From Schoenoplectus triqueter (taxonomy: Eukaryota > Streptophyta > Magnoliopsida > Poales > Cyperaceae), in contig CAXKVV010001093.1 of assembly GCA_964058805.1 (NCBI GenBank), forward strand, positions 1-34,820: 34,820 bases of DNA, read 5' to 3'. A program made the position numbers and the translations under genes. Below are positions 12,662 through 34,820 of this stretch, piece by piece. The notes below the pieces were generated by a model. The model made no database searches, was not told where the DNA came from, and saw nothing but the letters and a program-made list of their open reading frames with translations. Every line of letters starts with the position of its first letter. The first letter of the stretch is position 1.

Positions 12662-12663
12662 GT

Positions 12664-12675: not shown

Positions 12676-12687
12676 AGCAGGCGAAGG

Positions 12688-13720
12688 ATGGTGCGACGTA
12701 GTGCTCGTGTCAATCCTCCTGAAGGCAACCAGCAAGCCGATCGAGATATTGAGTTGAACGAGTTGAGGCAGCATGTGCAACAACTCCAAGAGCGTCTAGC
12801 GCGCGTGGAGGCCGCTGGGAACAACCGCGATGATTCCTATCGTGGCTCAGATGGCGAAACTTATGGTGATGATGATGCGGAGTTCAACCCCTTCCACGAC
12901 AACCACACCTTGGTGTCCAGTGATGAAGAGGCTCTCCATCAAAATCACACCCGAAGGAACCAGCAATTTCGACGGGCTTTTGATCTAAAAGCGGATATTC
13001 CTGTGTACGAGGGGCGCATACAACCCGATGAGTTCATAGATTGGTTCAATACGGTTGAACGTGTCTTTGAATACCAAGATGTCCCTGAGGAAGAAAAGGT
13101 GAAGATTGTTGTCATCAAATTAAAGAAGCATGCATCTATTTGGTGGGAGCAGTTGAAAATGAAGCGAGCCCGTGAGGGTAAGCAAAAAAATCAAAACATG
13201 GGAAAAGATGGTGAAAGAGTTACAAAAGAAGTTTCTGCCGGAAGGGTACTTGCAAGAGGCCTTTTTTCAACTTCATGGCTTTGTTCAAGGTGATAAAACT
13301 GTGGCAGATTACACTGAAGAACTTGATCACCTCATGTTGAAATGTGGCGTTGTTGAGCCCGAAGAACAAACCATTGCACGATATCTTCGTGGCCTTCGCA
13401 AGGAGATTCATGATGTGGTAACTTTACAGCCCTTTATCTCTTATCATGATGTGTTTAAACTTGCCACAAAAGTTGAAAAACAACTCAAGGAGAAAGAAGT
13501 CAGAAAAACAGCGAGCTTTGGTGGTAGCCGAGTTCTCAATCGAGGCCATCCAACAAGTCATGGGAGCAGTACGCAATCAGCCAAACCAACATCAAGTGCA
13601 GTGGCCAAATTTTCAGCAAAAACCGCAACCGCAGGACCCTCTAAACCAACCCCTAAAGCTGTTCAATGCTATCGATGCAAATGGTACGGTCACATCATGT
13701 CCGAGTGCCCAAACCAGCGG
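12688..13720 (+). pseudogene. gag region of gypsy gag-pol (frameshifted)
   Basis: Starts at the first ATG after the primer binding site. Residues ~20-45 are heptad-like (ELNELRQHVQQLQERLARVE), consistent with a coiled coil. The Retrotrans_gag-type core follows, with FDLKADIPVYEG and a W-W motif near SIWWEQLK. A one-base insertion in the A run at 13183-13191 shifts the frame. The original frame then ends at 13293, while the gag homology resumes in the next frame from about 13190. A CCHC zinc knuckle is intact at about 13667-13708 (CX2CX4HX4C, beginning CYRCKWYGH). Gag forms the virus-like particle and the knuckle binds RNA. The gene cannot be read as one protein in this copy unless the A-run length is an assembly error. 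Confidence 0.9.
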
Positions 13721-15674: not shown

Positions 15675-17150
15675 TTTTTACAAGGCTACATATTCCACAT
15701 CAAGCATAAAAGTGGTGCTTCAAATCAAGTGGCGAATGCTTTAAGTAGGAGGCATTCTTTGCTGTCCACAATGAAGGTAAATGTTCTTGGGTTTGAAGTG
15801 ATCAAGGAGTTGTATTCTGATGATGAGTTCTTTGGCATGATAAAAGCTGAATGTGCAAAAGGGCCATATAAAGAATTTGTGGTGAATGATGGATATATTT
15901 TCTATGGCAATCGTTTGTGCGTACCGAATTATTCTTTGAGGTGGCAGATCATTAAAGAGGTTAATGATGGTGGGTTAAGTGGTCATTTTGGATGAGATAA
16001 AACTGGTGCATTACTCCAAGACCATTTCTATTGGCCTAAAATGATGAAGGATGTGAACCATTATATTTTGAGATGTAGAACTTGCCATCTAGCAAAAATA
16101 AAGTCTCAAAATTCTGGACTTTACACTCCCCTTCCTGTTCCTAATGCACCGTGGAAAGATGTGAGCATGGATTTTGTGATGGGATTGCCCAGAACTCGAC
16201 GCAGCAAAGATTCAATCATAGTGGTGGTTGATCGGTTCTCTAAAATGGCGCACTTTGTTCCTTGTGCAAAAACGATGGATGCCACTAACATAGCTGATCT
16301 TTATTTCAAGGAGATAGTGAAGTTGCATGGCATTCCAAATACCATAACATCTGACAGAGACCCGAAGTTTGTTGGGCATTTTTGGAGAACACTTTGGCGT
16401 AAGATGGGTACAAAGCTGCAGTTTAGTTCAGCCTATCATCCTCAAACCGATGGCCAAACTGAGATTGTGAATCGGAGTTTGGGCAATCTGTTGAGAAGCT
16501 TGGTGGGTGATAACATACGCCAATGGGACCTTGTTCTACCTCAAGCTGAATTCGCTTACAACAGGTCCAACAGCAAGACGACAGGTAAAAGCCCTTTTGA
16601 AGTGGTGTATGGATGCAATCCAAAGACTCCTCTTGATCTTGTGTCATTGCCAATCAGCCATAGCTATAGTGGAGATGCAGATGAGCGTGCTAAAGCAATC
16701 AAGGACTTGCATGAACAAGTCAGCAAGAGGATTGAGAAGCAAAATCAGAAGTATGAAAGACAAGCTAACAAGCACCGAAGGGCTGTGATTTTCAAAGAAG
16801 GTGATCTTGTGTGGGTGCATTTGAGCAAGGAGAGATTTCCACCTGGGCGCAATGCAAAGCTCAAGCACCGTGGTGATGGACCGTTTAAAATCTTGCAGCA
16901 CATAGGTGACAATGCTTACAAGGTGGAGCTTCCCGGAGATTATGGTGTTTCATCCACATTCAATGTGAAGGATCTTTCTCCATACCATGGCGAAAATGAG
17001 CCGAACTCGTGGGCGAGTTCTTTTCAACCAGGGGAGAATGATGGCGATCAAGTCATGGCAGGTCTACAGGTGAACTCTCATGATCAAGGAAGCAAGTTCT
17101 GGACCAGTTCTCAGTTTGAAGAACCAGGCCCAAGTCATATTTACAATTAA
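15675..17150 (+). pseudogene. integrase of gypsy pol, CRM-like C-terminus (broken)
   Basis: Continues in the same frame as the RT-RNase H block. The HHCC zinc-binding region is split by a TGA at 15993-15995, consistent with a CGA-to-TGA change. Downstream, from 16041, the C residues of RCRTCHLAK are followed by the DDE core: D in SMDFVMGLP (residue 44 of the segment from 16041), D in SDRDPKF (105) and E in TDGQTEIVN (141), with the canonical 35-residue gap. A GPFKIL...YKVELP module follows, then FNVKDLSPY and an acidic tail. The frame crosses into the 3' LTR at 17039 and ends at the TAA at 17148-17150. No chromodomain is visible. The integrase would insert the cDNA, and CRM-type tails are thought to bias this to centromeric chromatin. 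Confidence 0.9.
17029..17038 (+). other. Polypurine tract of gypsy element
   Basis: CAGGGGAGAA lies immediately before the 3' LTR, the expected priming site for plus-strand DNA. It lies inside the integrase reading frame. Confidence 0.8.
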
Positions 17151-17700
17151 TTTACGAAACAGCAGCTTTCTGGACAGATTCGTACTGGGCCAGTATTTTG
17201 GGCATAACTCTCTCATAATAACTCGGATTTGGGTGATTCAAATTTCTGTGATCAGATGATGAAATGGACTATCTTTTTTATGTTTTGCGTTTCTCCAGAT
17301 TCCAGAGTCTTCTTGGTCAAAACCTCGTGTCAAGTGAGCGTGGTTACTGAGGAGCCAGCCAGCATTTAGTTTCTTGGAACTCGTCTTTGAGTCTTTCTAT
17401 GTTTTAATTATATTTTGGAATTAACAGTAGTAGTTAATGTTATTTTTATTGTTTTTTGATATTTGCAAAAATAGTTAAGGAGTTATTAATTAGTAGAAAG
17501 TTTCTAGAGTTGAGTTGTATGGCTATATAAAGCCTAATTTCTAAATGTAAACTCACTTGTTGAATTATTATGAAAAAGTTTATCTTGAGTTGAGTTTATC
17601 TCCTCTTTTATCCTGCTGTGAGTTGAGAGTATCCTCCAGTTGTGATTTTATAGTTGAACGTGTGCGTGTCCTTGGACGATTCATAGCTCGAACGCTATCA
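17039..17700 (+). repeat. 3' LTR of gypsy element
   Basis: Begins TGATGGCGATCAAG and ends GAACGCTATCA, 662 bp. Its first ~112 bp encode the last ~37 residues of the pol frame. Confidence 0.95.
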
Positions 17701-18300: not shown

Positions 18301-19117
18301 CTAATACAAGATCGTGTGAACAATCAGTTGATGAAATTAGGGATGAGAGCAAGGATAATTGATATAAATAATCATCCGGCTTAGAAATAGGAATTACCTC
18401 TGTGAGGGGTTATAGGCGCAATTGGTGATGCTAGCACTCTATCCCCACTCGCACGACACCAAGGCACGTTTCAAGTAAGTCTCTTGGACTCTCACAATTA
18501 GTGTATTGCCGGCTTGCTAATTGAATTCGAGATGAGATGCTCAAAATCAAAGTCAGTGCAAACAAGGGATTATACAAGGATGCTAGATCAAGTCCGGATG
18601 GTGAGGTGTTGTTGATTAAGCTTTCAATTGGAAGAATTAATAAAGAATGATTATGATTGAGTGTGAAGATCGTGAATGGGGCCTAAGTGAGAAATGAAGT
18701 TTTGATCAACCAATTGAAGTTAAGGGCTGCTCAGAGCTTATAAGGGAGGTTTGTCAGAGGTGTGCGAATGATCAGAATGTTCTGGAACGGTCTAGAAGTA
18801 TAGGAGAGTCGGTTGATGAAAATGAGTGGCAAAAGAGTAAAAATGATAAGAATATAACTAACTCTAACAACTCAAGTTGCGCAGTTAGCTAAAGGACAGT
18901 TGTGCGACCCTTTTTCGCGCGCTCCGCATCGTCGCTGGGCGATGGGATGCGGAAGAAGGACACGGAGATCCCTCCCAAGCGTGCATCTGTTTAATGCCGG
19001 CTGGTTCTGCCGTTTAGAAAGATTTGGATGCACATTTAGGGGGTTTTTAGTGATTGTGAGTTCTTGTAGATTCCGGTGGGCGCAAGCCCCCACCGTTAAT
19101 TACCCTGGGCAACTAAC
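18301..19117. other. Interior of inverted-repeat structure, left piece
   Basis: No protein-coding gene is supported here. It contains the putative intron described for 18091-18300 and some inverted repeats: TCCGCATC with GATGCGGA near 18925-18955, and CGGTGGG (19074-19080) with CCCACCG (19089-19095). I see no terminator, RNA gene or known repeat. The copia element is inserted at its right end, and the interior resumes at 28199. Confidence 0.5.
19113..19117. repeat. Target site duplication CTAAC, left copy
   Basis: Five-base direct repeat flanking the copia element. It matches 28194-28198. Confidence 0.9.
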
Positions 19118-19770
19118 TGTAGGGATTCAGAATGCCCAAATCCCATTAATGCTCAAGCTGCGGAAAGACCGTAGAACAAAAATTTTACTTCTACTTAAGT
19201 TAGGGATTAAAGTATGTCGGATAATAACCGAGAGTTACAGACATTTAATCCTTTACAAAAGACAGTAAAATATTATTTTACTTCTAACTTAAGCTTAGGG
19301 TTAAAGTGATGTGTCGGATGATTACCGAGAGATACACACCTCTTTAAACCTTTATTGATCTACTCCATGATTGATTTCTAAAATATTAATCTACTTAACA
19401 ATTACATAGATTAATATAAGATGTTATACCTCGCTTCCAAATTTCAATTGGAATGAAAATCGGCTTGTCTCGGAGCACCAAACGTCTGATGCCTCTGTAG
19501 GTTATCCACCAGGACTGACCAGAGAGCGGTTTATTTCTTTTGCCAGAAATACCGTAAACCGTGGTTTTTCGCAAAAACACTATTCACCCGAGAAAAAGAC
19601 GAAATAGTACTATTCACGACTCGCAGTAATTCTGTTTCACAAATGTGCAGAAATACCGCAACTTTCGTAAAAACACTATTCACCGATCCCGTGAATTCTC
19701 AAACAACCGTATACCGGGAGAGAGAAAGTAGAACTGATTTGGTATAATTTTCTCTCTCACCCCACCCCTC

Positions 19771-19779
19771 TATTTATAG
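19771..19779 (-). promoter_or_regulatory. TATA box of copia LTR (3' copy)
   Basis: CTATAAATA on the - strand is followed downstream by a pyrimidine/purine-biased leader. The transcription start would lie near 19745, leaving an R-U5 of about 630 bp. The 5' LTR copy is at 26733-26741. Confidence 0.75.
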
Positions 19780-19821
19780 CCAAATTTGGGATTGCAAAAT
19801 TACCAAAATACCCTTGAGGAT

Positions 19822-19937
19822 GATGTCATGGATGATGTCATATATGATGTCATGGATGATGTCATATATGATGTCATGGATGATGTCATGGATGATGTCA
19901 TATATGATGTCATGGATGATGTCATGCATGATGTCAT
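19822..19937. promoter_or_regulatory. Ten-copy 12-bp array, possible LTR enhancer
   Basis: GATGTCAT recurs ten times at exactly 12-bp spacing with alternating linkers GGAT, ATAT and GCAT. The core TGATGTCA is one change from the palindromic bZIP site TGACGTCA. In the element's orientation the array sits about 45-165 bp upstream of the TATA box. The reading frame rich in Met, Ser and Trp across it is a repeat artefact. The other LTR has the same array at 26784-26899 with one unit mutated. Confidence 0.65.
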
Positions 19938-21232
19938 CTAAGGTCCAAATTTACAAGTTTGCCATTGGGCTTTTGGCCAAATTACCGAAATACCCTTGGG
20001 CTTTTGGATTTTGGGCTTTTCTGATTTTGGGCTTTTAATTATTAATTAAGGCTTTAATTATTAATGGGCTTTTGGCCCATAATTCAAATCCATAATTAAC
20101 ATTTAAAATCCAAATCAAATATATATATAATTATCATCTACAATTATATTTTTCTCGGTTGTTGTTTCGGCGAATTTATACGACGTGTCCAACACGTTAT
20201 AAATTCAATCTGATTTTTGTTTCTTGTCATCTCTATGACAAATATAATTATATCATATATAATTAATTATAACCATCTTATTATTAATTATAAACAATTC
20301 ATAATTAATCAATAAGATTCTCCGATTAACTCCTATACGGTGTGACCCGACAGGATCCGTGTTATGTTGGTAAATAGAGTTAAAACCGTTTTAACTTCTA
20401 TAATCATAGGAGGCATCTGGCAGAATGCACTATGACCATCCAATTACACAGATGATGATGTACTGTACAATATCATGATCCAGTAAACTATTTACTTGTG
20501 TTTAATTCTTTTGTCTCATAGCTATCAGATCAGTTTCAAGGTAGGTATGTGTCATCCTTGCAAACTTAATCTTTTCTTGATCCTGAGTAAATAATCAAAT
20601 ATAATTACTCTTGTAATTATACTGCTAGCAGATAATCTTACTCTATCAAGGGGCCCAGTGATGCTATAACTCGTATAAAAATACGAGGGACAATAGTACT
20701 TTTGGCAAACCATCTCTTCCTCCGCATAAGTTATGTATACCGAAGAGCTACCTTTATAGCCACCTTTTACGGATAACGTTTGGTAGAAATCACACACATA
20801 CATATCCTATGTAAGAAAGATGAATACCTCATACTTTAGAATTTAATACTGAACGAAAACATTAATGACACGAATACAATTCCATTTAATGTTTCATTGG
20901 GGGTCTATCAAAATACGATGTTCCTTGAACATCTATCTATGTGATTAAAATGACAACTCTTTGTCTATGGTCTGTAAAACTTGACCATCATTTAATCCAC
21001 ATACTAACTTGATAACGGTTAATTAGTGTTCCTGCTAATTACCTTAGTTAGTGACTTTTAAGAGTATATTCTATATTATGAAGTTTCACAATTCCAGTCA
21101 TGAACTCGGAATGATTCATAAATTCAATAATACTCAAGGAAACAAAATATCGTTTAAATATCCAATTCATGAACAAAGCTTTATATAACAAATTTATCGT
21201 ATTATTGACTTCAAGATTATTACAAACTAACA

Positions 21233-21243
21233 ATCTCCCACTT
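21233..21243 (-). other. Polypurine tract of copia element
   Basis: AAGTGGGAGAT on the - strand immediately precedes the 3' LTR. Confidence 0.85.
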
Positions 21244-21374
21244 AAGCTTGGAGTCAATCATATTGAGTCATGCCTTATACAAATCTCTTTATTCTATAAA
21301 TCTCTCAGATTTAAAGGAAAATCTCACAGCCAATCTCCTATGTGTCTCAAACCCATAGAAGATATGTGCAACTA

Positions 21375-21802
21375 GTGCTTGGCCTGAGGTAGAGATCTTA
21401 CAAGTGGATCAGCTGTGTTGCCGACGGTGTCAATTTTATAAATCTTTACGTCGCCTCTATTTATGATTTTTCATATGAGGTGATAACGTCTGTGTAATCA
21501 CTTACCACGGGCTCTGAGTCAGCACCGTAGATGAGAAACATATCCTTAGTTCTTCTTAAGTACTTAAAGATATTCTTTGCAGCATTCCAGTGCTCCTAGC
21601 ATGGATTAGCCTGATATCTACTCGTCACACTCCAAGCGTACGAGACATCAGGGCGAGTGCACAACATGGCGTACATGATAGAGCCAATAGCCGAAGCATA
21701 TGGTACTCTACTCATTATGTTTTGCTCATCAGTTGTCAAAGGACACTGAGTCTTGCTAAGCTGTGCACCATGATTCATTGGCAGAAATCTTTTCTTAGAA
21801 TT
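21375..21802 (-). pseudogene. RNase H remnant of copia pol
   Basis: Read on the - strand, a stretch with MYAMLCTRPDVSYA and SRYQANP (the copia RT-RNase H connection) is followed by a TAG at 21596-21598. After KNIFKYL-like sequence and a YTD motif (about 21485-21499) the alignment jumps to the family's C-terminal end, RGDVKIYKIDTVGNTADPL (about 21401-21458), in another frame. The intervening RNase H core with the remaining acidic catalytic residues is absent. The domain that would degrade the RNA template is therefore deleted, and the reading frame is broken. Confidence 0.85.
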
Positions 21803-22441
21803 CTACGTGCTGAACCGATTCAGCACTTTATCAATGTATGTACTTTGACTTAATCCAATAAGTCTCTTAGATCTATCTCTATAGATCTTTATGTCTAGTA
21901 TATAGACAGTCTCGCCCAAATCTTTCATTGAGAACACTTTCTTTAATGAAGATTTGGCTGATTGCAATAGGGGAATATTATTTCCCATTAAGAGTATATC
22001 GTCCACATAGAGGGTTAAAATAGCGATGACACTCCCACTAGTTTTCCTGTATACACAATGTTCTTCTTTGCATCTGACGAAGTCAAACTGTTTGACTTCT
22101 TCGTCAAATCAAAGATTCCAACTCCGTGATGCTTGCTTCAATCCATAATGGATCTGAGAAGCTTGCATAACTTCCCAGCATTCTTTGGATCCTCAAAACT
22201 TATGGGCTGTATCATATACACGTCATCTTCCAAATTTCCATTTAGGAAGACGGTTTTGACATCCATTTGCCATATTTCATAATCATAAAATATGATAATT
22301 GTTAGGAGCATCCGAATTGACTTAAACATAGCTACGGACGAAAAAGTTTCATCATAATCTATGTCGAGAATTTGCTTGAAACTTTTCGCTACTAGCCGTA
22401 CTTTGTAAATAATCATATTATCATCCATGCCTGTTTTTCTT
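21803..22441 (-). pseudogene. reverse transcriptase of copia pol (broken)
   Basis: Copia-type RVT_2 domain. It contains LDIDYDETFS and WQMDVKTVFLNGNLEDDVYM, then the catalytic YVDD box at 21998-22009 followed by ILLMGN, and IYRDRSKRLIGLSQSTYI. Lesions visible are a one-base insertion in the T run of the coding strand (22444-22449 on the + strand shown as A), a one-base deletion near 22145 in the usual SIYGLKQA region with a premature stop at 22138-22140, a TGA at 22109-22111 and a TAG at 21803-21805. It cannot encode a working polymerase. Confidence 0.9.
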
Positions 22442-23098
22442 TTAAAAAACCCACTTGTTAGCTATGGGTTTTACCCCAACAAGTGGTGCAACCAGGTTCC
22501 AAACCTTGTTGTCATACATGGACTGTATTTCGGATCTCATGGCCTCCAGCCATTTATCAGAGTCGGGTCTATCCACTGCTTCCGCATAGGTCAGAGGATC
22601 TTCAGCATCAAATACTGAGACTTCATGCAGTCCCATGTACCTTTAAGGTGCACGAACTGTCCTATGTGACCTTCGTAGCACTTGTTCTTCAGGCTGTCGA
22701 ACTTCATCCACATCAGTATGCGCATTTAGTTCTATTTCAACTTGCGTTGAAGTAGATGAGCTCGGGACTAGAACTTCTTTCACAACTATTTGTAGATTTG
22801 GTTCTTCCAAATGCTCATTAGCCGAAGAATCAAGTGGTGGGTTTATCTGATCAGTATCAGATATTGTATTGTGTGATGTATCTTGAATTTCTTCAAGTAT
22901 TACATTACTCCCACTACTTCCTTTTGCGAGAAACTCTTTCTCCAAAAATATACCATGACGAGCAACAATTATCTTGTTCTCGGACTGATAATAGAAGTAA
23001 TATCCTTTCGTTTCCTTAGGATACCCTACGAAAAAACATTTATCAGCTTTGGGTCCAAGTTTGTCAGAAGTCGAACGTTTGACAAATACCTTGCAACC
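22442..23098 (-). pseudogene. integrase C-terminus to RT N-terminus of copia pol (broken)
   Basis: In frame with the upstream gag-IN piece but separated from it by the TAG at 23099-23101, where the family has a tryptophan codon. It shows GCKVFVKR, DKCFFVGYPKETKGYYFY and ARHGIFLEKEF, conserved after the copia integrase core. An acidic, Ser-rich linker and LRRSHRTVRAP follow. A TAA at 22643-22645 interrupts it. The RT N-terminus then reads YAEAVDRPDSDKWLEAM and VGVKPIANKWVF before the frameshift stop at 22442-22444. Confidence 0.9.
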
Positions 23099-24115
23099 CT
23101 AAATTTTAAGATAAGACATATTTGGTACCTTACCAAACCATAACTCATATGGAGTCTTTTCTACTGACTTGGATGAAACCTTATTTATTATTAGTGCAGC
23201 AGTTTCTAGTGCGTGCCCCCAAAACATTTTTGGGAGTGTGGTATTACTCATCATGGAACAAACCATGTCTAACAGAGTTTGATTCCTCCTCTCAGAAACA
23301 CCATTCCATTGCGGCATTCCCGGAGGTGTGAGTTGTGAGACTATTCCACATTCTTTTAAGTACATTATAAACTCATAACTTAAGTATTCGCCTCCACGGT
23401 CTGACCGTAAGGCCTTAATACTTTTATTCAGTTGATTTTCTACTTCAGTCTTGAATTCCTTGAACTTTTCAAAAGATTCAGACTTATGTCTCATCAAGTA
23501 GACATAACCATATCTACTGTAATCATCAATAAATGTGATAAAGTAGCGATCACTGTTTCTTGTACAAGTACTCATTGGTCTGCATACATCTGTGTGTATA
23601 AGGGCTAATAAGTCACTTGTCCTTTCGCCCTTCTTGGAGAAAGACAATTTGGTCATTTTGTGTTTCATCTTTTTAATCTTATTTCCACCTTCTTGGATCA
23701 TGAGATTAGAAGAACTCTTCTTCATCTCCCCATCAGCGATCCTCAACATCCCTTTGAGCTCCTGCAAGCTCTTGTCCATTCCCAGCATATAATAATTCCT
23801 GATGAAATTAGAATAGCTAGGAGGGAGAGAGTTCAGGATAACATCCGTAACAAACTCTTTGCTCAACGGACTGTTAAGCTTCTCCAACTGCTCAACATCG
23901 CTCGTCATACGGAGCATGTGAGTGTCAAGAGAGCTGCCCTCAGTCATCTTATGACTCAGCGGAGATTTAGTTACCTTAAATTTCTTGACCAAGAAACTTT
24001 GTACATCAAGCTCATGTTCTTTGTGCTTGTTGTACATGGTGACTTCATTTGCTGTGCAGTCTACTGCAGGCTGTGCAGGGATTAGTGTATTTAAGGACGT
24101 ACTCGAGTTTCTCAT
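23099..24115 (-). pseudogene. gag fused to integrase core by internal deletion (copia)
   Basis: A 338-residue open frame. Residues ~1-150 are copia Gag (UBN2-type), with SSLDTHMLRM, EQLEKL, PLSKEFVTDVILNSLPPSYSNF and a basic end. Relative to related Gags, the N-terminal part and an internal stretch near residue 40 look shortened. Residues ~165-338 are the integrase catalytic core with D176 (LIHTDVC), D239 (RSDRGGEY) and E275 (GVSERRN), the last two separated by 35 residues. Everything normally between is missing: CCHC knuckle, aspartic protease, and the GAG_pre-integrase zinc region. The join is in frame, so this copy could still encode a Gag-IN fusion. No function is known for such a product. 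Confidence 0.88.
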
Positions 24116-24619
24116 GTCTTAGTATGATTATGAGCGCACATAACGTATTAGTAAGAGTTTCTTTAACCATGTGATACAACATTTAAAATGTAAAGATTTT
24201 TAGCTTTGTTCATGTAATGTCTTATTTCAAATAAAACTCCCACTACAAATTTGTTCTATTCCCGTTTGTAGTTAGGACCAAGATCCCTATTTTCATTGAT
24301 AATCAAGTTATCGTTGAATAACTCGTTTATTAATTATCTTAGGTAAGCAACTCTTTGCTAATCACATCTCTATGTGATTCTTGGTTTCGCTAAACATCAT
24401 ATGTTTTAACGAAACTTTGCCCCAAGCCCAAAACTGTTTTGGAAATCATTGGTAAGTAACCTCACTCTATTTGATTCGTTATGTCGGACATAACCCTCGA
24501 AAACCAAAGGTAAAAGGTGACGCCTACTGAGTAGGTCACGTCTGCCAATGAACAATGGTATGCGAGGACAGAGTAGGTAGGGCATATTACTTAATTTTTC
24601 GGGTTTAACATCGTAAGCA

Positions 24620-25080
24620 GTCAGTTTGTTAAACTGACTTTAAACAGACTTACGAACACGTAAAAAATGTCTGCCAGAAAGACCACTGAAAGTTCCTTTT
24701 CCAGTCTTTCTTTGACACAACCTTCCTTCACGGTTTCTTAAAAATGATAAATCTAATTTACACATTTATAATTAGTCAGTTTATTAAGCTAACTTTAAAC
24801 AGACTTATGAACACGTGAAAATACGTCTGCCAGAAAGACCATTGAAAGTTCCTTTTCCAGTCTTTCTTTGACATAACATTCTTTCACGGTTCCTTAAAAT
24901 GATAAATCTAATTTACACATTTATAATTAGTCAGTTTATTAAGCTGACTTTAAACAGACTTATGAACACGTGAAAAGACGTCTGCCAGAAAGACCATTGA
25001 AAGTTCCTTTTCCAGTCTTTCTTTGACATAACATTCTTTCACGGTTCCTTAAAATGATAAATCTAATTTACTCATTTATT
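24620..25080 (-). repeat. Three tandem ~155-bp repeats in copia leader
   Basis: Copies start near 24620, 24775 and 24930. Each contains GTCAGTTT...AACTGAC-type inverted repeats (in copy 1, GTCAGTTT-GTT-AAACTGAC) and AAAGACC...GTCTTT arms. Copies 2 and 3 are the most similar. Confidence 0.8.
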
Positions 25081-25320
25081 ATCAAAGCGGTAAATCCAAT
25101 TTACCAGCTCATACAAACATTTTGTATATATACATGAATCAGTCACGTATATAACTACTATCTATCCAATAGAAGTAGCTTTGCATCTATGATAAGATAC
25201 ATTTCATATCAAAGCAGTAAATCTAATTTACTTGCTCATACAAACATTTTGTATATATATATGTGAATCAGTCACATATATAACTATCAGTTCTCAATTC
25301 TTTATTTTGCAACTACATCT
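25080..25320 (-). repeat. Two tandem ~127-bp repeats in copia leader
   Basis: Copies begin with ATCAAAGC-GTAAAT near 25080 and 25207. Each contains GTAAAT/ATTTAC and a TATATA-rich inverted repeat around the loop AATCAGT. In the second copy TATATATGTG pairs fully with CACATATATA. Confidence 0.75.
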
Positions 25321-25395
25321 TTGTTCTTTATTTATACCGTAAAAAGCATATAAACATTTTATATGATTTCAAAAACAGTTAATTCCTTCTGGTAC

Positions 25396-25870
25396 GATAA
25401 AGTAATTTGATAACGTGACAAAGTTCCTTTTCGGCCAGTTATCAGGACACGTAAAAGGGGCTCCCAGGAAAGATCGGGGTCACGAGGACCACTTTAAATT
25501 CAATCTTTCCTAGACAGAACCATCTCTTTCGGGTGTGGAGATCAACAGCTCTTACTCAGGTACTTTATTGCTTCATCACATTCATAGATATACTTCTCAT
25601 AACCAAAAGTTTTCGAAAAAGCAAAAGAGTTACATTTGCCATGCTTCGAAAGCGCAAAAGTAATTTGGTAACGTGACAAAGTTCCTTTTGGGCCAGTTAT
25701 CAGGACACGTAAAAGGGCATGTCAGAAAGAATACCGAAGGTATCCACTTCCCATCTTTCTTTGACATCACCTTATCTTTTATGTGTGGAGATCAACAGCT
25801 CTTACTTAGGTACTTTATTGCTTCATCACATTCTTAGATATACTTTAACACAATCGAAAGTTTTCGAAAA
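25396..25870 (-). repeat. Two ~262-bp repeats in copia leader
   Basis: Copies start near 25396 and 25658. Both contain GTAATTTG-TAACGTGACAAAG, GGCCAGTTATCAGGACACG and ATCAACAGCTCTTAC blocks. Confidence 0.75.
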
Positions 25871-26066
25871 GAAAGCGTAAAGAAAGTATAAAGAAAGCTT
25901 AAATCTAATTTAACTTTCTTAGTCGACAGAGCCGAACCAAGAAAATCCAATTTTATTTGGTTTGAACTTTAAGCTGCAAATCTAAGAATTAAACCGATAC
26001 GGGGTATATGCATCTTATTTGCATAAGATATAACCTTATAGAAAATCAATCAGCGGGAGAGCCTTT

Positions 26067-26078
26067 GCTCTGATACCA
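26067..26078 (-). other. Primer binding site of copia element
   Basis: TGGTATCAGAGC on the - strand, one base after the 5' LTR end (CCCAACA). It is complementary to the 3' end of initiator tRNA-Met. Confidence 0.9.
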
Positions 26079-26732
26079 CTGTTGGGATTCGGAATGCCCA
26101 AATCCCATTAATGCTCAAGCTGCGGAAAGACCGTAGAACAAAAATTTTACTTCTACTTAAGTTAGGGATTAAAGTATGTCGGATAATAACCGAGAGTTAC
26201 AGACATTTAATCCTTTACAAAAGACGGTAAAATATTATTTTACTTCTAACTTAAGCTTAGGGTTAAAGTGATGTGTCGGATGATTACCGAGAGATACACA
26301 CCTCTTTAAACCTTTATTGATCTACTCCATGATTGATTTCTAAAATATTAATCTACTTAACAATTACATAGATTAATATAAGATGTTATACCTCGCTTCC
26401 AAATTTCAATTGGAATGAAAATCGGCTTGTCTCGGAGCACCAAACGTCTGATGCCTCTGTAGGTTATCCACCAGGACTGACCAGAGAGCGGTTTATTTCT
26501 TTTGCCAGAAATACCGTAAACCGCGGTTTTTCACAAAAACACTATTCACCCGAGAAAAAGACGAAATAGTACTATTCACGACTCGCAGTAATTCTGTTTC
26601 ACAAATGTGCAGAAATACCGCAACTTTCGTAAAAACACTATTCACCGATCCCGTGAATTCTCAAACAACCGTATACCGGGAGAGAGAAAGTAGAACTGAT
26701 TTGGTGTAATTTTCTCTCTCACCCCACCCCTC

Positions 26733-26741
26733 TATTTATAG
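26733..26741 (-). promoter_or_regulatory. TATA box of copia 5' LTR
   Basis: CTATAAATA on the - strand. This is the copy that would drive the full-length genomic transcript. Confidence 0.75.
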
Positions 26742-26783
26742 CCAAATTTGGGATTGCAAAATTACCAAAATACCCTTGAGGAT

Positions 26784-26899
26784 GATGTCATGGATGATGT
26801 CATATATGATGTCATGGATGATGTCATATATGATGTCATGGATGATGTCATGGATGATGTCATATATGATGTCATGGATGATGTTATGCATGATGTCAT
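26784..26899. promoter_or_regulatory. 12-bp array upstream of copia promoter (5' LTR copy)
   Basis: Same ten-unit array as in the 3' LTR, with the ninth unit changed from GATGTCAT to GATGTTAT. Confidence 0.65.
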
Positions 26900-28193
26900 C
26901 TAAGGTCCAAATTTACAAGTTTGCCATTGGGCTTTTGGCCAAATTACCGAAATACCCTTGGGCTTTTGGATTTTGGGCTTTTCTGATTTTGGGCTTTTAA
27001 TTATTAATTAAGGATTTAATTCTTAATGGGCTTTTGGCCCATAATTCAAATCCATAATTAACATTTAAAATCCAAATCAAATATATATATAATTATCATC
27101 TACAATTATATTTTTCTCGGTTGTTGTTTCGGCGAATTTATACGACGTGTCCAACACGTTATAAATTCAATCTGATTTTTGTTTCTTGTCATCTCTATGA
27201 CAAATATAATTATATCATATATAATTAATTATAACCATCTTATTATTAATTATAAACAATTCATAATTAATCAATAAGATTCTCCGATTAACTCCTATAC
27301 GGTGTGACCCGACAGGATCCGTGTTATGTTGGTAAATAGAGTTAAAACCGTTTTAACTTCTATAATCATAGGAGGCATCTGGCAGAATGCACTATGACCA
27401 TCCAATTACACAGATGATGATGTACTGTATAATATCATGATCCAGTAAACTATTTACTTGTGTTTAATTCTTTTGTCTCATAGCTATCAGATCAGTTTCA
27501 AGGTAGGTATGTGTCATCCTTGCAAACTTAATCTTTTCTTGATCCTGAGTAAATAATCAAATATAATTACTCTTATAATTATACTGCTAGCAGATAATCT
27601 TACTCTATCAAGGGGCCCAGTGATGCTATAACTCGTATAAAAATACGAGGGACAATAGTACTTTTGGCAAACCATCTCTTCCTCCGCATAAGTTATGTAT
27701 ACCGAAGAGCTACCTTTATAGCCACCTTTTACGGATAACGTTTGGTAGAAATCACACACATACATATCCTATGTAAGAAAGATGAATACCTCATACTTTA
27801 GAATTTAATACTGAACGAAAACATTAATGACACGAATACAATTCCATTTAATGTTTCATTCGGGGTCTATCAAATACGATGTTCCTTGAACATCTATCTA
27901 TGTGATTAAAATGACAACTCTTTGTCTATGGTCTGTAAAACTTGACCATCATTTAATCCACATACTAACTTGATAACGGTTAATTAGTGTTCCTGCTAAT
28001 TACCTTGGTTAGTGACTTTTAAGAGTATATTCTATATTATGAAGTTTCACAATTCCAGTCATGAACTCGGAATGATTCATAAATTCAATAATACTCAAGG
28101 AAACAAAATATCGTTTAAATATCCAATTCATGAACAAAGCTTTATATAACAAATTTATCGTATTATTGACTTCAAGATTATTACAAACTAACA

Positions 28194-28198: not shown

Positions 28199-28296
28199 CT
28201 CGAGGCACCTCTGGATCTTTAAAAGGGAGAAGCAAATAGTATAGTTAAATGATGGTCAAGTGGTCGTCTGGGTTCACCAAAAGGTTGATCCCGTGG

Positions 28297-28933
28297 AAGA
28301 CGAACCTACTACAGATCGGTTCAGTCTTTACCGCCTCGAGAGATAACCTTACTACAGATCAGATTAATCTCTTCGAAGGGGTTCGATGTGAGTCTACTAA
28401 AGAACGACTCAGCCTCAGTTAATCTAGAAAATGAACCTACTTCAGAACGGTTCAAAATTGATCCTATGAAAGACGAACCTACTACAGATCGGTTCAGTTT
28501 ATACCGCCTCAAGAGATAACCTTACTACAGATCAGATTAATCTCTTCAGAGGGGTTTGAGGTGAGTCTACTACAGAACGACTCAACCTCAGTTGATCTAG
28601 AAGATAAACCTACTACAGAACGGTTCAATCTTAACTAGTCAACAACCAATCACACAAAATACAACTCGAAGCACTGAGCCGGTTGATCTTGAGGTTGGTG
28701 AATCAGGAGAAGGGTGGATTTGGCCCACGTGTTTCTTCTCACTGATCTTCTAGATCATGAATTCGAAGCACTAAGCCAATTCATAAACCTAGGAACACAA
28801 CTGCACACAATGTCAAACCTAAAGCACTAAGCCAGCTTAATATTGAAGCATGTGTTAGTGAAGGAACCTACTACAGAACGGTTCACATTCACTGTTTTGT
28901 GGATGAATCTACTACAGAACGATTCAATCTCAC
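28297..28933. other. Array of ten constant-loop hairpins (class H)
   Basis: Ten stem-loops share an 11-nt loop TACTACAGAAC or TACTACAGATC (two units with one change). Loops start at 28307, 28350, 28395, 28438, 28480, 28523, 28568, 28611, 28869 and 28910. Each loop is flanked by a 5-bp inner stem (GAACC/GGTTC, GAGTC/GACTC, GAATC/GATTC, AACCT/AGATT). An unpaired A follows on the 3' side, and most units add an outer stem of 5-7 bp, for example AAGAC/GTCTT, GAGGT/ACCTC, AAGAGAT/ATCTCTT and AAGAT/ATCTT. Loop spacing is 42-45 bp for the first eight. A 164-173-bp block of four hairpins is duplicated. Function and transcribed strand are unknown. Confidence 0.8.
28662..28838. other. Second hairpin class with GAAGCACTRAGCC loop
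   Basis: Three occurrences of a ~14-nt segment CGAAGCACTAAGCC or close variants start at about 28667, 28764 and 28820. The middle one is flanked by ATGAATT and AATTCAT, a perfect 7-bp stem. The first has CAAC/GTTG and the third is degraded. They lie between the eighth and ninth class-H hairpins. Confidence 0.5.
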
Positions 28934-28997
28934 GATCTCGGGAGATGAACCAGAAGACAAACTTATCGACGGATGAGTTCAGCCTTACTAGCTCAAA

Positions 28998-29455
28998 TGG
29001 TCATGAATTACTTGTTCATGACACCGAGTCATTAAGATGTCACTTCTCTCGGACATCGTAATGTTCTTATCTCTTGGAGTCGACATATCTCTTCATGTTG
29101 ATGTCGCAGCCTTGATTATTCTTCAATGAGCGTCAAGATGTTCTTGTCCCGACTAATCGTTCTAAATGTTGCATTACTTGTGCAAAATCACTGTGTTGCT
29201 CTACACCCCTTGTGTGAGCGCATTTAGTCATGAATTACTTGTTCATGATACTGAGTCATTAAGATGTCACTTCTCTCAGACATCGTAATGTTCTTCTTCC
29301 TCAAAGTCGACATATCTCTTCATGTTGATGTCGCAGCCTTGGTTATTTTTCAACGAGCGTCAAGATGTTCTTGTCTCGACTAATTGTTCTAAATGTTGCA
29401 TTACTAAAATCACTGTGTTGCTCTACACCCTTTGTGTGAGCGTATTCATTCACCT
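28998..29455. repeat. Two-copy ~227-bp repeat full of stem-loops
   Basis: Copies begin near 28998 and 29225. Stems in the first copy include GTCATGAA/TTCATGAC (loop TTACTTG), then CATTA-GATGTC (29030-29041) with GACATC-TAATG (29052-29063) and one A-G mismatch, and GCTC-ACAC/GTGT-GAGC near 29198-29218. The second copy keeps the long stem and the last one, and changes CTCTCG to CTCTCA in the loop. Confidence 0.7.
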
Positions 29456-29459
29456 TTAA

Positions 29460-30460
29460 AATGTAAAAAGGACTATTATATTTTTATTGATTTTTTTATT
29501 ATTAAGATAATACCTTCCATTATTATCTCTATTACAAAGGTGAATTTATTATTATTATTTTTTTTATTTTTAAACTCTATTTATTTCTGTAGAAAATTAT
29601 TTACAAAAATAATAGGAAATGGGTTAGCTATTATCTAGAATTTTATTTAGATTTTTGGGGTTTTATAATAGCTAGGGTAATAGAATTTCATTATTATTAT
29701 TTCTAACTCTATTTATTTTTGTAGAAAATCACTTACAAAAATAATAGAAAATAAATTGGCTATGATTTTATTTGAATTTGTAGAATTTTATAATAGCCAA
29801 AGTAATAGAATTTATATTGTTATATTCTTATTATGTTGAAATACTATTTATTTTGTAGAAATTATTTACAAAACAAAAGATGAATGAGCTATATTATTTC
29901 TATTTTGATTTTTGGGATGTATAATAGATAAAGAAATCATTATTATTATTCTATTCCAATTATGATAGTTTTTATTATATTTTTATTATTTCTATTTATT
30001 ATTTGTAGAAAAATATAAGAATTTTGTTTTATTACCATTATTATTATTATTTAAAAAAAATTCTTATAATAGCTATAAAGAATAAAATTCATTATATTCT
30101 TTATTACAATTATTATTTTTATTGTATTTCATTTATCTATTTTATTATATGATTTCATTATTATATTCCTTATTCTAGAATAAGATGTATTTATTATTTA
30201 TTATTATGATTATTTATTTATGTATTTTTTATTTTTTTTACAGAAATATTAACATAATATTTATTTGACATTATTATTTGTTCTTTTTTTTTATTAAAGA
30301 ATAGAGCTAATCTTATTATTTATTATTGCATATTATTATTGTTATTATTATTTTATGAAAAATAACCAGAAAATCATTAAAATATATCTAATTATTATTT
30401 ATGATTTTATTTGAATTTTTAGAATTTTTATAATATATAAAATGACAAGTCAAAGCTAAG
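29460..30460. repeat. Very AT-rich stretch with repeated stem-loops
   Basis: Dominated by ATTATT runs and ~132-bp degenerate tandem units. One hairpin type has CTATT-ATTTTTGT (29709-29722, one extra T) pairing with ACAAAAATAATAG (29735-29747). The same design is at 29577-29615 with one mismatch, and weakly near 29848. A second type has TAGCTATTAT (29625-29634) with ATAATAGCTA (29665-29674), and in the next unit TTGGCTAT (29756-29763) with ATAGCCAA (29793-29800). No gene is visible. Confidence 0.7.
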
Positions 30461-31089
30461 TCAAATATGTCAATGCATATAATATCTTTTGCTTTTAAAT
30501 TGTTTTAATATGATAATATTTTTAAAACTGAAATATTATTATATAGAAAAATACTATGAAAAATAAGGAAATTTTAGAAACAAATTTGGGTTAATTTGGA
30601 GTTTAGGAACATTTTCAAATGATTTATTTACTCTATACCTTTAATATTCTGTTATTAATTGATTATTGGGCTCAATCTGGGCCTTTAGATCTATATCAAG
30701 ATTAGTGTACATCTTTTATTCAACTCTGTTCTCATTTGGGCCGCCGGATTCAATTTAAGATTAAGTTATATGAGATGTAAGGCCCAGATTCATTTTATAT
30801 CTTTATTTAAAATGGCGCTTTATTTCAAACGTTCGATCTGTTCCGAGATTCGTGTGTGCGCTTCAATACTCGTGCCTGTGCGTCAATATTTGTGCTGATG
30901 CATTCCATTGATTTCTCGATCGGTAAAGTCTTTAATATTCGCGCTACCGGTGGTGCCGGCGACTGAGGCCACCTCTTGCCGATCGGATGACTCCCTTAGC
31001 ACCGTCTTATCATGATAAAACCTTCTACGGTGTCTGATTGACAATCAATACGGTAGATAATGCTGCATACTTGTGTCATTTGAAACAAA
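30461..31089. other. Unassigned spacer
   Basis: Mixed-composition sequence with no supported gene, RNA or known repeat. It includes a GGGCC-rich portion near 30668-30805 and several short palindromes, such as TGATTGACAATCA near 31036. Confidence 0.4.
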
Positions 31090-31620
31090 TTGGTACCGCT
31101 CGGTACCAAAGAGCAATCTTTGCAAATTCAATGAAATTAATTGATGTTCCTGATAATTGATTGCTTGATTCGCATCGTTTACACATGCTAACATGCATGA
31201 ACACAATTAGCAATATTCAAATCAACTTACAACTTTGCTAAGCCAAGTGTGTGATGGTACCGTTCGGTACCAGTTATAATTCACTCGAAATTCTTGCTAT
31301 TAACTCATTTACAATGCCAATTGTTCACTTGACAAGCTTCGTAACAACAATTATAAACAGAATATACTTGATTATGTGTGCAATTTCTCTCTAATCTCAA
31401 TTGGAAGCTCAGTTTAGTCGGTACAGTGCGGTATCGCTCAACACCGATTGCAATTCACTCAAGATTTCAATTATTCATTCACTTTCAATGCCACTTATAT
31501 ACTTAAGGAACTCTATAACAACCATCATGATCGAAATACACTCAATTATGCATACAATTTTGCTTTAATCTTCAATTTAGAATTGTATTTAACTGATGCG
31601 ACACGATAACGATACTGTCA
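31090..31620. repeat. ~165-bp degenerate repeats with GGTACCG palindromes
   Basis: TTGGTACCG-CT-CGGTACCAA (31090-31109) is a perfect 9-bp inverted repeat. TGGTACCG-TT-CGGTACCA recurs at 31255-31272, a decayed copy is near 31418, and a further trace is near 31595. Intervening sequence (ATTCACTC, CAATGCCA, ACAACAAT-type blocks) also aligns between units. Confidence 0.65.
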
Positions 31621-31629
31621 CTCTAAATT

Positions 31630-32120
31630 AATCGAGTTCTCAAGCTTTTAGCTGAGATCAATCGGCTCTAAACAACAATATAGGCCCCAATGTATATGAT
31701 ACAGATAGGAATCAATGCAATTTTAACTTTAGAACAAGAAATCAAATTGAAATTTTAACTGTTATCGAGTTCTCAAGTTAAGCACTGAGATCAATCGATG
31801 TAACAGTCTCCATTTCTGTTTTTCAAACAAAATTGAACAAAGAAATCAATAGAATTATGCAATCTAAGATTCTGAATCTTGAAATAAAGGAAAAGAAATA
31901 GAGATAACCGAAGGAAAATCGATGAAATTCAATACGATATCACTGATATACTGCTATTCAAAGAATTTAGCTACAATAACCTCTCTAATCTCTGATATCT
32001 CAAGAATTAGACTTGCAAACCTTGAATTGACATAAATTAGAGCTTAGAACTTACCTCTAATTGAGTAATTGGAATGAAATAAATCGAGTTCTCAAGTTAA
32101 AACTGAGATCAATCGATTAT
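31630..32120. repeat. Three TCGAGTTCTCAAG...TGAGATCAATCG units
   Basis: Occurrences are at about 31630-31665, 31764-31799 and 32084-32120. CTCA pairs with TGAG and the outer ATCGA pairs with TCGAT (AATCGA/TCGATT in the third) around a variable loop. Spacing is irregular. Confidence 0.55.
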
Positions 32121-32941
32121 ATCAATCTTCTCTTCCAAGTTCTTGCTTTTCTTCTTGCTCTCTCTCTCTCTGAGTTCTATATGCAACCTCTAAAGTATTT
32201 TTTCTCTATTTCTTGTCTTCTGTATTGTGTGTGTGTGTATGTTTTTGCTATTAATTGGGTTATATAGGCAATTGGAGTGGTGCACCAAGGGATTAGAGCC
32301 ATATACCATTCATACACCGATAATTGCATTGCTCTGGTCCATGAACATGGTTTTCCATTTCTGTTATTCAATCTGTTATGGTGTGGGCCCCCCCAAAGCA
32401 TGAATCTTTGACTGTTGACCAAGCTTGACCTTCCTCTCACTTCTCATCCACTGCTAGAACTTTCTAGATCATATCAACATACTATAAATACTCATCTCAA
32501 TGCATCTAAAGCACCCCTTTGCTCTCTGCCATTATTGCCCTTCTTCAAAGCTGTGAATTCAATCACCCGATTTCCACCTTTGGTCAAATGCATATCTCCA
32601 TCATTTGATTGACAGTCTTCATCACTTAAGCGGCGTCGTGTAGGCACATAGAAGCTACAAGCATTGCTAATTCGAGCTGAGAGTGCAAGGTTTCAAGTTT
32701 TCTCCATTTGCCCGATTCATTACTTCATCTCAATTACTTCTATTTAATGCTTAATTGTTACTTCTTTCTTCATCTACAACGTCGCCTAAGTGAGTAGAAG
32801 GAGTTTGCATCATCAATTTTAGATTTTGAAGCAAGAATTGAAGTGCCTCATTAATCACCTGCGGTATTCATCTCTCTCAATAACCCTATTCATTCATTAC
32901 TTTTCAATTTTGATCAATTGCACATATTCTCCCATGTATAG
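32121..32941. other. Spacer with microsatellites and putative first intron
   Basis: Contains CT repeats at 32157-32171 and GT repeats at 32227-32238. No gene is supported in 32240-32860. A GCG/GTATTC donor-like site at 32863/32864 and a TATAG acceptor-like site at 32941 could bound a 78-nt intron preceding the exon-like segment in the right arm. Confidence 0.35.
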
Positions 32942-33138
32942 GCTAACTCTGACTGGAAAGAATTGAAGTTGCGAGCTTTGGAGAGCTTGATCAGTATTAA
33001 TGGCGCCTTCTGCCTCGTCGAGAAGAAGAAAGAAGAGAGGGAGGGAAGAAGGAGAAGAAAGGGAAGGAGGTGCGCCTAGCGCACATAGTCCACAACATGG
33101 TGGTTCCCACAGTCAGAGGCGCAACACAAGTGAGCCAG
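32942..33138 (+). pseudogene. Exon-like segment with short basic peptide, right arm
   Basis: Product not recognised. Counterpart of 18091-18300. A 58-nt leader containing AATTGAAG is followed by ATG at 33000-33002 and 46 codons, very rich in Arg, Lys and Glu (MAPSASSRRRKKRGREEGEE). They end EPG at the donor-like CAG/GTACAT (33138/33139). The left-arm version starts with the same ATGGCGCC, keeps a basic cluster, ends with the same EPG codons and splice phase, and is 9 nt longer. No longer frame continues beyond the donor within the window, so any remaining protein would depend on exons not seen. Confidence 0.37.
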
Positions 33139-33419
33139 GTACATATCCCCTTTTCTCCTTGGTTTAAATTTCTGTTTAGATCTGCGCATAGGCTTGGTGC
33201 ATGATTGTCTGTGTGAGCTATACATTCATAAACCTGACAAATGGGCCCCACATGTAAGTATATGAATCTCGGCCCATTAGCCCAGCTGTGGACTGGTTAA
33301 TCTCTTGCTTAGGTTTAATTGATCTGACTTGGCACACTCTGATAGGTCCACTTGCTTAATTATCCCATTAATCATCTGTATTAGTATTAATGTATGCTGA
33401 GGTGGCTCTGTAGTGTAGT

Positions 33420-33715
33420 GCCATGTGGCTTGGTCCACTGTGATGTGGCACCAATGGCCAGCTGCCATATGGCACTGGAGTGTTGAGGTGTGATGCTGTG
33501 GTGTTGCCATGTGGCACATAGGAGAGTGAGGTGTGTTGCTGCAGGGCTGCCATGTGGCACTGGGAGGGTGAGGTGGACCTGTCAGATCTTGCCACATGGC
33601 ATATTGGTGGGGCCCACATGTCAGGTCAGTATGGTGGTGGGGCCCACATGGCTGAGGTGGACCAATGGGGTGCTGACACGTGGCATGAGGTGACCCAGTG
33701 AGATACTGACACGTG
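33420..33715. promoter_or_regulatory. Cluster of GCCAYRTGGC palindromes in the right arm
   Basis: Instances are at 33420-33429, 33506-33515 and 33549-33558 (GCCATGTGGC), 33464-33473 (GCCATATGGC) and 33591-33600 (GCCACATGGC), with TGACACGTGGC and TGACACGTGTCA near 33674 and 33708. They alternate with GGGGCCCACATG blocks and GAGGTG spacers. Confidence 0.6.
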
Positions 33716-34182
33716 TCACACTCTCTCTCCCCTTTGATTCTGTGTATATGTTTGGGATCCCCAGTTTGCACCCAGATGTGCCTCTGTCCCCAAGTTGCAC
33801 TCAGATGAACCCTTGATTGAATCTCAGCCTTTGATCTTCCCTTTTTAATCTGTTTTATCTTCCCTGAATTTATTTTGATAGCTCCACTTATCCAAAAATT
33901 ATGAAATTTTCACCAAAAATCCCTAAATTCATGATAATCATCCTTGTAATTTTTAATTCCATTTTTACCCCTGTCTCTCTGAATTAAAAATTCTTTTGTC
34001 TAGAAAACCCTGTTCCTTTCTCTGAATTAATCCCAGATTTCAATTGTAGCTCAGTGTCCCTGCCAATTATCTCTCTCTTGCAGAAACCACCCTAACTAAA
34101 TACCAATTAGACTTATATTGATATTCATTAAGGTTCGATCTGATCAACAGTTGATTACATGTCAACAGTTGATACAAATCTA

Positions 34183-34228
34183 GACTTGATCAGATGGTTG
34201 CTCCCAGCTTTGGCACCTGATCAGTCTT
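34183..34228. other. Hairpin Q2 counterpart in right arm
   Basis: AGACT (34183-34187, after which one T is unpaired) and GATCAGATG (34189-34197) face CACCTGATC (34215-34223) and AGTCT (34224-34228) around a 17-nt loop. On the opposite strand this is the same loop and same unpaired A as 11213-11258, with a different wobble position in the stem. Confidence 0.6.
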
Positions 34229-34654
34229 GTGAAATTGACTTTCAATCCCTTAACATGAGGGTGACTTGGTCAAAGAACTGACTACTTATCAGTAATTAAC
34301 ACAAATCAAAGCATGGTTAGGTGGTTGCTCACAGCTTTGGCACCAGGTCAGCCTCGAAAGCAAAATCACATTTGAAATTTCTCATGATTAGTTGCATCAG
34401 AATACTAGCTTGGCATTGACATCATTCTTTGTTGCATAGGGATTATACCATTTCAGTTCTTAGGGTTTACTCTGAAGGTAAATCTTTAGGGTTTAATTCT
34501 GACTCTTCTGATGTTTGGTCACTGAGGTGTGGGGCCCACCTGTCAGTGAAAAATGATTACATGGATGACCCATCAGATAGGCTAGGTTTATGTTGTTAGA
34601 GCCGTCTACAAGGGACTGCCAGGTGGGTCCCACTTGTCAGAAAAGATATAATCA

Positions 34655-34743
34655 CATGGTGACACCCGAGAGATCTCTCCTCTCCCTCGATCCTCTCGGC
34701 TGTCACTCATGCCGAGTGGATAGGGGATAATGGGGTATTTATA
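34655..34743 (-). promoter_or_regulatory. TATA-plus-hairpin module in right arm
   Basis: TATAAAT on the - strand (34737-34743) is followed, reading leftwards, by a hairpin with arms 34689-34711 and 34655-34675. The arms pair through GTGACA/TGTCAC and CCGAGAG/CTCTCGG, with one bulge at 34707, one C-C mismatch and one extra C at 34692. The stem core differs in sequence from the left-arm modules yet stays paired. Confidence 0.6.
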
Positions 34744-34820
34744 CTCTTCCCTTCATGCCCAGAATTTCATTGTGGGACAAATAAGGTTGCTCCGGAATTC
34801 TGTCAGCGACTTCTTCTGAT

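Follow-up and report, generated by a model that had tools for sequence, protein, structure and literature searches.

LTR retroelements are known to carry structured leaders with packaging and dimerisation signals (PMC11381356, PMC3735527), and in Ty1, Ty3 and HIV-1 the regions responsible lie in the structured 5' end of the RNA (PMC11381356). Multiple stem-loops that share a short motif and are read by a coat or core protein are described for single-stranded RNA viruses (PMC6281560, PMC7612645). Here we report an array of hairpins with a near-fixed loop in a 34,820-bp stretch of Schoenoplectus triqueter DNA (the window). The array had been noticed in a sequence-only reading of the letters. To our knowledge, the means by which LTR retrotransposons of plants pick out their own RNA are poorly understood.

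Ten hairpins span positions 28297-28931 of the window on the minus strand, which is the coding strand of the surrounding element (Table 1). Ten stem-loops had been said to share one loop; all ten units were found, but the 11-nt loop is exact in only eight. The pattern TACTACAGAWC occurs eight times on the plus strand of the window and not at all on the minus strand, and in the 82-Mb genome it was found 681 + 664 times (1345), compared to 44 + 58 (102) for the reversed control. The array is real and far above chance. On the coding strand a unit consists of an outer stem, an unpaired U, a 5-bp inner stem and the loop G(A/U)UCUGUAGUA. All five inner pairs form on this strand in 10 of 10 units when G-U is counted, but on the plus strand units 2 and 6 (C.A) and unit 8 (A.C) carry a mismatch, which becomes G-U on the minus strand in all three. 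Outer stems of at least five consecutive pairs are present in five units (1, 2, 6, 7 and 8), while those of units 9 and 10 are shifted or bulged and those of units 3-5 are weak or broken.

Loop-to-loop spacings are 43, 45, 43, 42, 43, 45, 43, 258 and 41 bp, and units 1-8 represent a four-unit block present in two copies (173-bp period, 90% matches). The 258 bp need not be meaningful as 6 x 43, because the same spacing recurs in a second LTR subfamily and a second hairpin class fills the gap. A covariance model of the units, as the sequence-only reading had suggested, was built from the 35 haplotypes described below, which partly include the window's own sequence; it recovered 10 of 10 window units on the minus strand plus one weak extra match (E 0.22). 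When units were folded singly, 6 of 10 were more stable than mononucleotide shuffles at p<=0.05. The self-complementary tetranucleotide GAUC is present in four of the ten loops; the other six read GUUC and lack it. Loop-loop kissing by way of UACUACA was rejected, as its complement was absent (0 matches) from the coding strand of the C1489 LTR and from the 1.2 kb after the PBS of locus L033.

Table 1. Positions of the hairpins and of their host elements in the window; stems and loops are as described in the last column
Feature	Position	Strand	Loop start	Description
Hairpin unit 1	28297..28328	-	28307	GAACC/GGTTC, loop GATCTGTAGTA, outer AAGAC/GTCTT
Hairpin unit 2	28340..28371	-	28350	AATCT/AGGTT on coding strand (one G-U), outer AGAGAT/ATCTCT
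Hairpin unit 3	28385..28416	-	28395	GAGTC/GACTC, degenerate loop (TACTAAAGAAC on +), outer stem weak
Hairpin unit 4	28428..28459	-	28438	GAACC/GGTTC, degenerate loop (TACTTCAGAAC on +), no clear outer stem
Hairpin unit 5	28470..28501	-	28480	GAACC/GGTTC, outer stem broken in window copy
Hairpin unit 6	28513..28544	-	28523	AATCT/AGGTT (one G-U), full outer stem
Hairpin unit 7	28558..28589	-	28568	GAGTC/GACTC, outer GAGGT/ACCTC
Hairpin unit 8	28601..28632	-	28611	GAACC/GGTTT (one G-U on coding strand), outer AAGAT/ATCTT
Hairpin unit 9	28859..28890	-	28869	GAACC/GGTTC, outer GTGAA/TTCAC with asymmetric internal loop
Hairpin unit 10	28900..28931	-	28910	GAATC/GATTC, outer GTG(A)GAT/ATCCAC with bulged A
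Second hairpin class	28662..28685	-		loop around GGCTYAGTGCTTC, stem CAAC/GTTG
Second hairpin class	28757..28784	-		stem ATGAAT/ATTCAT
Second hairpin class	28812..28841	-		stem family GT(T/C)AA/TT(G/A)AC among copies
Two 227-bp direct repeats	29000..29446	-		further predicted hairpins; upstream of array on coding strand
LTR, coding-upstream part	28199..34520	-		interrupted; coding-5' end near 34.5 kb approximate
LTR, coding-3' end (U5 side)	18901..19117	-		ends ..GGGTCGCACA; PBS-like site adjoins in other copies
Ty1/copia, younger, nested in LTR	19118..28193	-		LTRs 19118-21232 and 26078-28193, 99.3% identical; TSD CTAAC; outside array

The array is part of the approximately 5.2-kb LTR of a giant Ty3/gypsy element, Tat-like and encoded by the minus strand, and sits 0.3-1.0 kb before the LTR 3' end in the coding sense. 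Copies elsewhere in the genome join window 18901-19117 straight to about 28199 onward, and the nested copia element carries the Pfam domains Retrotran_gag_2, rve and RVT_2 on the minus strand. In contig C1489, two 5.19-kb LTR copies (99.17% identical, about 16.5 kb apart) are flanked at both outer ends by the 5-bp repeat GGTTC, a target site duplication (TSD); one of them has the ends TGTTTACC..TCGCACA and the other ends TCGCATA. At each of six junction loci the LTR closes with ..GGGTCGCA(C/T)A, after which come GGATC and a sequence resembling a primer-binding site (PBS), which reads TGGCACGCCC in five of the six, starting 5 nt past the LTR, and TAGCACGCCC in the sixth (L034). The TG..CA ends, the PBS-like site and the 5-bp TSD are those of a Ty3/gypsy LTR element. 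Beside one C1489 LTR, rve, H2C2 and RVT_3 domains were found on the minus strand, opposite to the strand read at first. RVT_3 (PF13456) is present as two pieces of one frame with a stop between them (E 6.6e-7 and 5.5e-5), with H2C2 and rve next, and may represent an extra RNase H (aRH) domain. Such a domain in the polyprotein marks the Tat clade (PMC6317226). The closest relatives of the integrase that are assigned to a plant belong to Rhynchospora, a sedge, with identities of up to 75%, and JGI metagenome proteins are up to 97% identical over 54% of the query. After the PBS lies an ORF of at least 376 aa without a Pfam match (L033:2626-3753). All 44 of its homologs are JGI metagenome proteins, one of which, matching 10% of the ORF, carries PF03732, presumably Retrotrans_gag. 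Elements of the Ogre subclade have an extra ORF upstream of gag, a long LTR and an intron between gag-prot and pol.

These results changed two parts of the sequence-only reading. The hairpins had been taken for a plant repeat family of their own, but a stand-alone repeat or satellite family was rejected, since the flanking sequence turned out to be an LTR with a TSD. The array had also been read as RNA on the plus strand, which was rejected because both the coding domains and the common G-U pairs lie on the minus strand. A subterminal array of a CACTA or MULE transposon, considered since the loop resembles CACTA, was dropped in view of the TG..CA ends and TSD. Rfam gave no match above gathering score in window 10000-34820, and two exact core patterns had no match in the viral_contigs collection.

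The remainder of the window holds other repeats. Two satellites abut, one of 58 bp (86 copies, 1-4977) and one of 183 bp (28 copies, 4974-10119), and at locus L015 an LTR copy lies directly against the 58-bp satellite. A separate Ty3/gypsy element with 662-bp LTRs (98.6% identical) and several open gag/pol pieces occupies 12000-17700. Positions 10238-11852 and 33590-34818 are related inverted stretches, parts of both of which match the coding-5' end of the array LTR family. Loci L066 and L035 show a partial tandem duplication of about 142 bp across the LTR end and PBS-like site.

To describe the unit across this one genome, 541 distinct units (59-mers with at most one mismatch in the loop) were tabulated. 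Loci L062-L064 were excluded; the L063 palindrome is 14 bp, and L064:244-281, not in any array, is a solitary hairpin whose perfect stem of 12 bp (AGAAATATTGAC/GTCAATATTTCT) encloses the loop letters. On the coding strand there is usually one unpaired pyrimidine next to the inner stem, often followed by an outer stem. An unpaired A had been reported as fixed; it accompanies a clear outer stem in five of the ten window units, but the base is not invariant, being T in 457, C in 71, A in 12 and G in 1 of the 541 units on the coding strand. The 2705 inner cells comprised 2474 Watson-Crick, 151 G-U, 46 A-C and 34 other combinations. With exact cores across the whole genome, inner pair 1 was C-G 277 times, U-A 100, C.A 6 and U.G 7 (13 mixed), and inner pair 2 was C-G 277, U-A 174, C.A 6 and U.G 9 (15 mixed); these tables include related copies and are given as counts without p-values. 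G-U (16) and A-C (12) were about equal in the exact-core counts, which show no strand bias and are dominated by private decay. Fetched array stretches hold 3-14 units (10 in the window), so the number varies between copies, and spacing within blocks is regular at 41-48 bp.

The LTRs fall into subfamilies F1 (that of the window), F2 and F3, the latter two being roughly 73-83% identical to F1 over longer matches. Relative to the C1489 LTR, changed inner pairs were still paired in 28 of 33 cells in seven F2 copies and in 49 of 63 in nine F3 copies. Divergence of the loop was below that of the spacer in F2 (0.087 vs 0.152), and in F3 the loop constraint is weak since the values are 0.149 and 0.173. 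Outer stems are frequent in F1 and F2, sometimes with bulges of their own, and are missing from most of the 48-bp-spaced F3 units displayed.

Covariation was assessed with the 35 haplotypes found at three or more places, drawn from 380 distinct 36-mers. All five inner pairs are kept in every one (175 of 175 cells), and 35 of the 175 cells have changed on both sides, three of these to U-G. The covariation score of the 12-pair structure was 0.446, compared to 0.225 for shuffled and at most 0.18 for slid controls, although two of five measures (the number of doubly changed pairs and the number of pair types) did not exceed shuffles. RNAalifold returned the five inner pairs unaided, and in an APC-corrected G-test the top three of 666 column pairs were inner pairs 1, 3 and 2. 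The tree-based null was more demanding. Only 2 of 11 predicted pairs (inner 1 and 3) reached E of about 0.05 or better, deep events being few; inner pair 2 gave E=2 and no outer pair passed. Those events are C-G/U-A exchanges at pairs 1 and 2, A-U/G-C/C-G/U-A at pair 3 and G-C/A-U at pair 5. Double changes per branch numbered 10 (null mean 5.3, maximum 14), or 14 without GAACT/AGTTC units (null mean 5.9, maximum 14), but only 4 in the full set and 6 in the subset ended Watson-Crick, with 1-3 in slid controls; at branch level the compensatory changes are equivocal evidence. Conserved RNA structure with covariation was thus seen in the haplotypes, the subfamilies and the core counts, with 2 of 11 pairs passing the tree null. 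For the outer stems, also said to covary, pairing is clear in half of the window units.

Mutations private to one copy and those shared among copies were compared in an alignment of 29 distinct F1 copies (of 37) plus the window, with the window duplicates L009 and L010 excluded. Fisher, block-identity, TATAWAW and strand-stability analyses used 26 of the 29 (L023, L025 and L060 left out). Loci L009-L038 were the best matches to the window array, which over-represents F1, and the 40 loci L068-L107 were picked for having a perfect GAACT/AGTTC core, so that this type is inflated. Private variants numbered 0.20 per site in both the spacer and the inner stem, 0.21 in the loop and 0.29 in the outer stem. 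Variants common to at least four copies came to 42 in 431 spacer sites, 1 in 100 inner, 3 in 110 loop and 5 in 100 outer sites. The depletion of shared variants in loop plus inner stem relative to spacer gave p=0.0009 (0.009 with variants in 2-3 copies also treated as shared), Fisher values here and below being guides only because many rows are close kin (two LTRs per element, duplicated contigs). Dead copies mutate evenly, while transmitted lineages change loop and inner stem less freely, which favours selection over mutation.

The stems gave a similar contrast. Among stem types at seven or more places all nine changes keep the pair, compared to 19 of 58 private changes (39 breaking; p=1.6e-4), and at five or more places 10 keep and 3 break it, compared to 19 and 36 private ones (p=0.011). 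The types at seven or more places include four with coding-strand G-U and none with A-C, which speaks for RNA and for the coding strand, although counts are small; those at five or more places include five and three, respectively. Taken together, pairing and constraint favour a sense-strand RNA hairpin over a DNA effect. Hairpin-templated correction at the DNA level, offered originally as the alternative, is disfavoured because wobble pairs in the common types lie on one strand only and the loop is kept while the stems differ.

A second class of hairpins shares the region. On the coding strand its loop is GGCTYAGTGCTT(C) and its stems are UCAAC/GUUG, UGAAU/AUUCA and GU(U/C)AA/UU(G/A)AC, with a U-G intermediate. 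Majority identity among F1 copies from 18938 to about 29218 was 90-99% per 40-bp block (mostly 95-99%), and 74-96% in the AT-rich part beyond about 29.5 kb, a profile biased by the choice of copies for similarity to 28240-28990. In all 27 copies examined, TATAWAW was present only more than about 1260 nt away from the LTR end; this points weakly to a transcription start upstream of the array, the evidence being weak because that side is AT-rich. Folding z-scores of the coding strand reached -4.8 in the array zone and -5.5 in some windows elsewhere in the LTR. Since only 6 of 10 units fold significantly and other LTR parts also have strongly negative z-scores, the case for the hairpins is comparative and not energetic. 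The coding strand was more stable in 27 of 27 copies, which are related; shuffles were also negative and were exceeded in 25 of 27, and composition gives much of this excess.

The leader of the nested copia element, an unrelated family (from the PBS TGGTATCAGAGC to gag, window 24115-26078, minus strand), is also predicted to fold into numerous hairpins, among them three 155-bp repeats. A related pair of these hairpins differs by one pair change with a coding-strand G-U (UAUAUGUGA/UUCACAUAUA vs UAUACGUGA/UUCAUGUAUA). That this leader folds in a similar way makes a leader role plausible in general.

RNA-type hairpins with a near-constant loop and covarying stems, the central proposal of the sequence-only reading, are supported by pairing counts, haplotypes and shared-variant depletion. 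Judged from these comparisons, the hairpins are probably under selection as sense-strand RNA. If the transcript begins within or close to the AT-rich stretch upstream of the array, the hairpins would fall in a structured R-U5 leader beside the PBS, and sense RNA from the LTR would carry the array in that leader. Each loop G(A/U)UCUGUAGUA would be a putative site for one RNA-binding protein and the stem might merely present it, which would let the stem letters drift in pairs. The likeliest reader would be Gag or the protein encoded by the ORF that follows the PBS, and many sites in a row could raise avidity, such that the element's own RNA would be chosen for dimerisation and packaging. The RNA part of this account is well supported, while the protein and packaging parts are our inference; that Gag binding or packaging is the main job of the hairpins has, in our estimate, slightly less than an even chance. 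The account as a whole, in which selection maintains many copies of an RNA hairpin in the sense transcript of a Tat-like retrotransposon, as putative Gag or packaging sites in its 5' leader, could equally prove right or wrong. It is possible, if doubtful, that the array acts as a repeated hairpin 'barcode' in which some ten 11-nt loops on drifting stems, together with the second fixed-loop class, are read by a multimerising element-encoded protein (Gag or the first-ORF product). If true, this would be a self-recognition code for packaging the element's own RNA that differs in spacing and copy number between LTR subfamilies.

The sense-strand hairpins might instead serve another purpose, such as leader translation, nuclear export, splicing control or binding of a host protein or silencing factor, and although we think this unlikely, it fits all of the pairing and constraint evidence equally. 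The gag-pol intron of Ogre is removed from only part of the transcripts (PMC6317226), and the second class with another constant loop in the region means that more than one factor may be involved. A packaging role may be favoured over these in that the PBS-side location and many like loops resemble packaging and dimerisation regions (PMC11381356).

If the units were instead transcription-factor sites of dyad symmetry in U3 that enhance the LTR promoter, this would account for the regular 41-48 bp spacing, the many 21-bp dyad cores and an outer stem that is dispensable in F3. Unit number differs between copies, as it does in U3 enhancers. Half-sites, however, need not change together, and here the centre, not the arms, is most constant; common variants carry one-strand G-U (4 vs 0 at seven or more places), and between the array and the LTR end 27 copies lack a TATA-like site, which is weak evidence as the other side is AT-rich. 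We regard the enhancer as improbable. It is very improbable that the array has no function, pairing being kept by hairpin-templated template switching in reverse transcription and units kept alike by duplication or conversion: tandem duplication is evident (two four-unit copies at a 173-bp period with 90% matches), the result by branch is equivocal and the loop letters also occur in the lone 12-bp-stem hairpin of L064, but template switching would neither fix a loop over differing stems nor keep G-U in common types, loop and inner stem are depleted of widely shared and not of private mutations, and outer stems and spacers have diverged.

Such a multi-copy hairpin with a near-fixed loop offers, for a very large group of elements, a candidate recognition site that is short, mutable and open to direct testing, and the contrast of private with shared mutations, between dead and transmitted copies, is a simple route to functional RNA inside repeats. 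In the literature searched (titles and abstract openings, with few subscription journals), no plant LTR with a cluster of hairpins sharing a near-fixed 11-nt loop was found, nor did the exact motif strings match there. We know of no hairpin arrays in LTRs of Tat-clade elements such as Ogre and Retand. The host resembles these Tat (OTA) elements in having RVT_3 before the integrase, a length of about 21.7 kb, a 5.2-kb LTR, a 5-bp TSD and a post-PBS ORF without a Pfam domain. Like psi, DIS and Ty3 DS/PAL6, the array would be a structured part of an LTR-element RNA, close to the PBS and the 5' end, but it differs in being one hairpin type repeated, with a near-fixed 11-nt loop and free stems. With the dispersed packaging signals of single-stranded RNA viruses it shares many stem-loops with a common motif; in contrast, it forms one cluster of about 640 bp in an LTR, where the viral signals are scattered over a coding genome, and has a much longer fixed loop. 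Finally, its units are tandemly duplicated, as in the tandem repeats and satellites inside LTR elements, but what has been kept in the array is the pairing and the loop and not the overall sequence.
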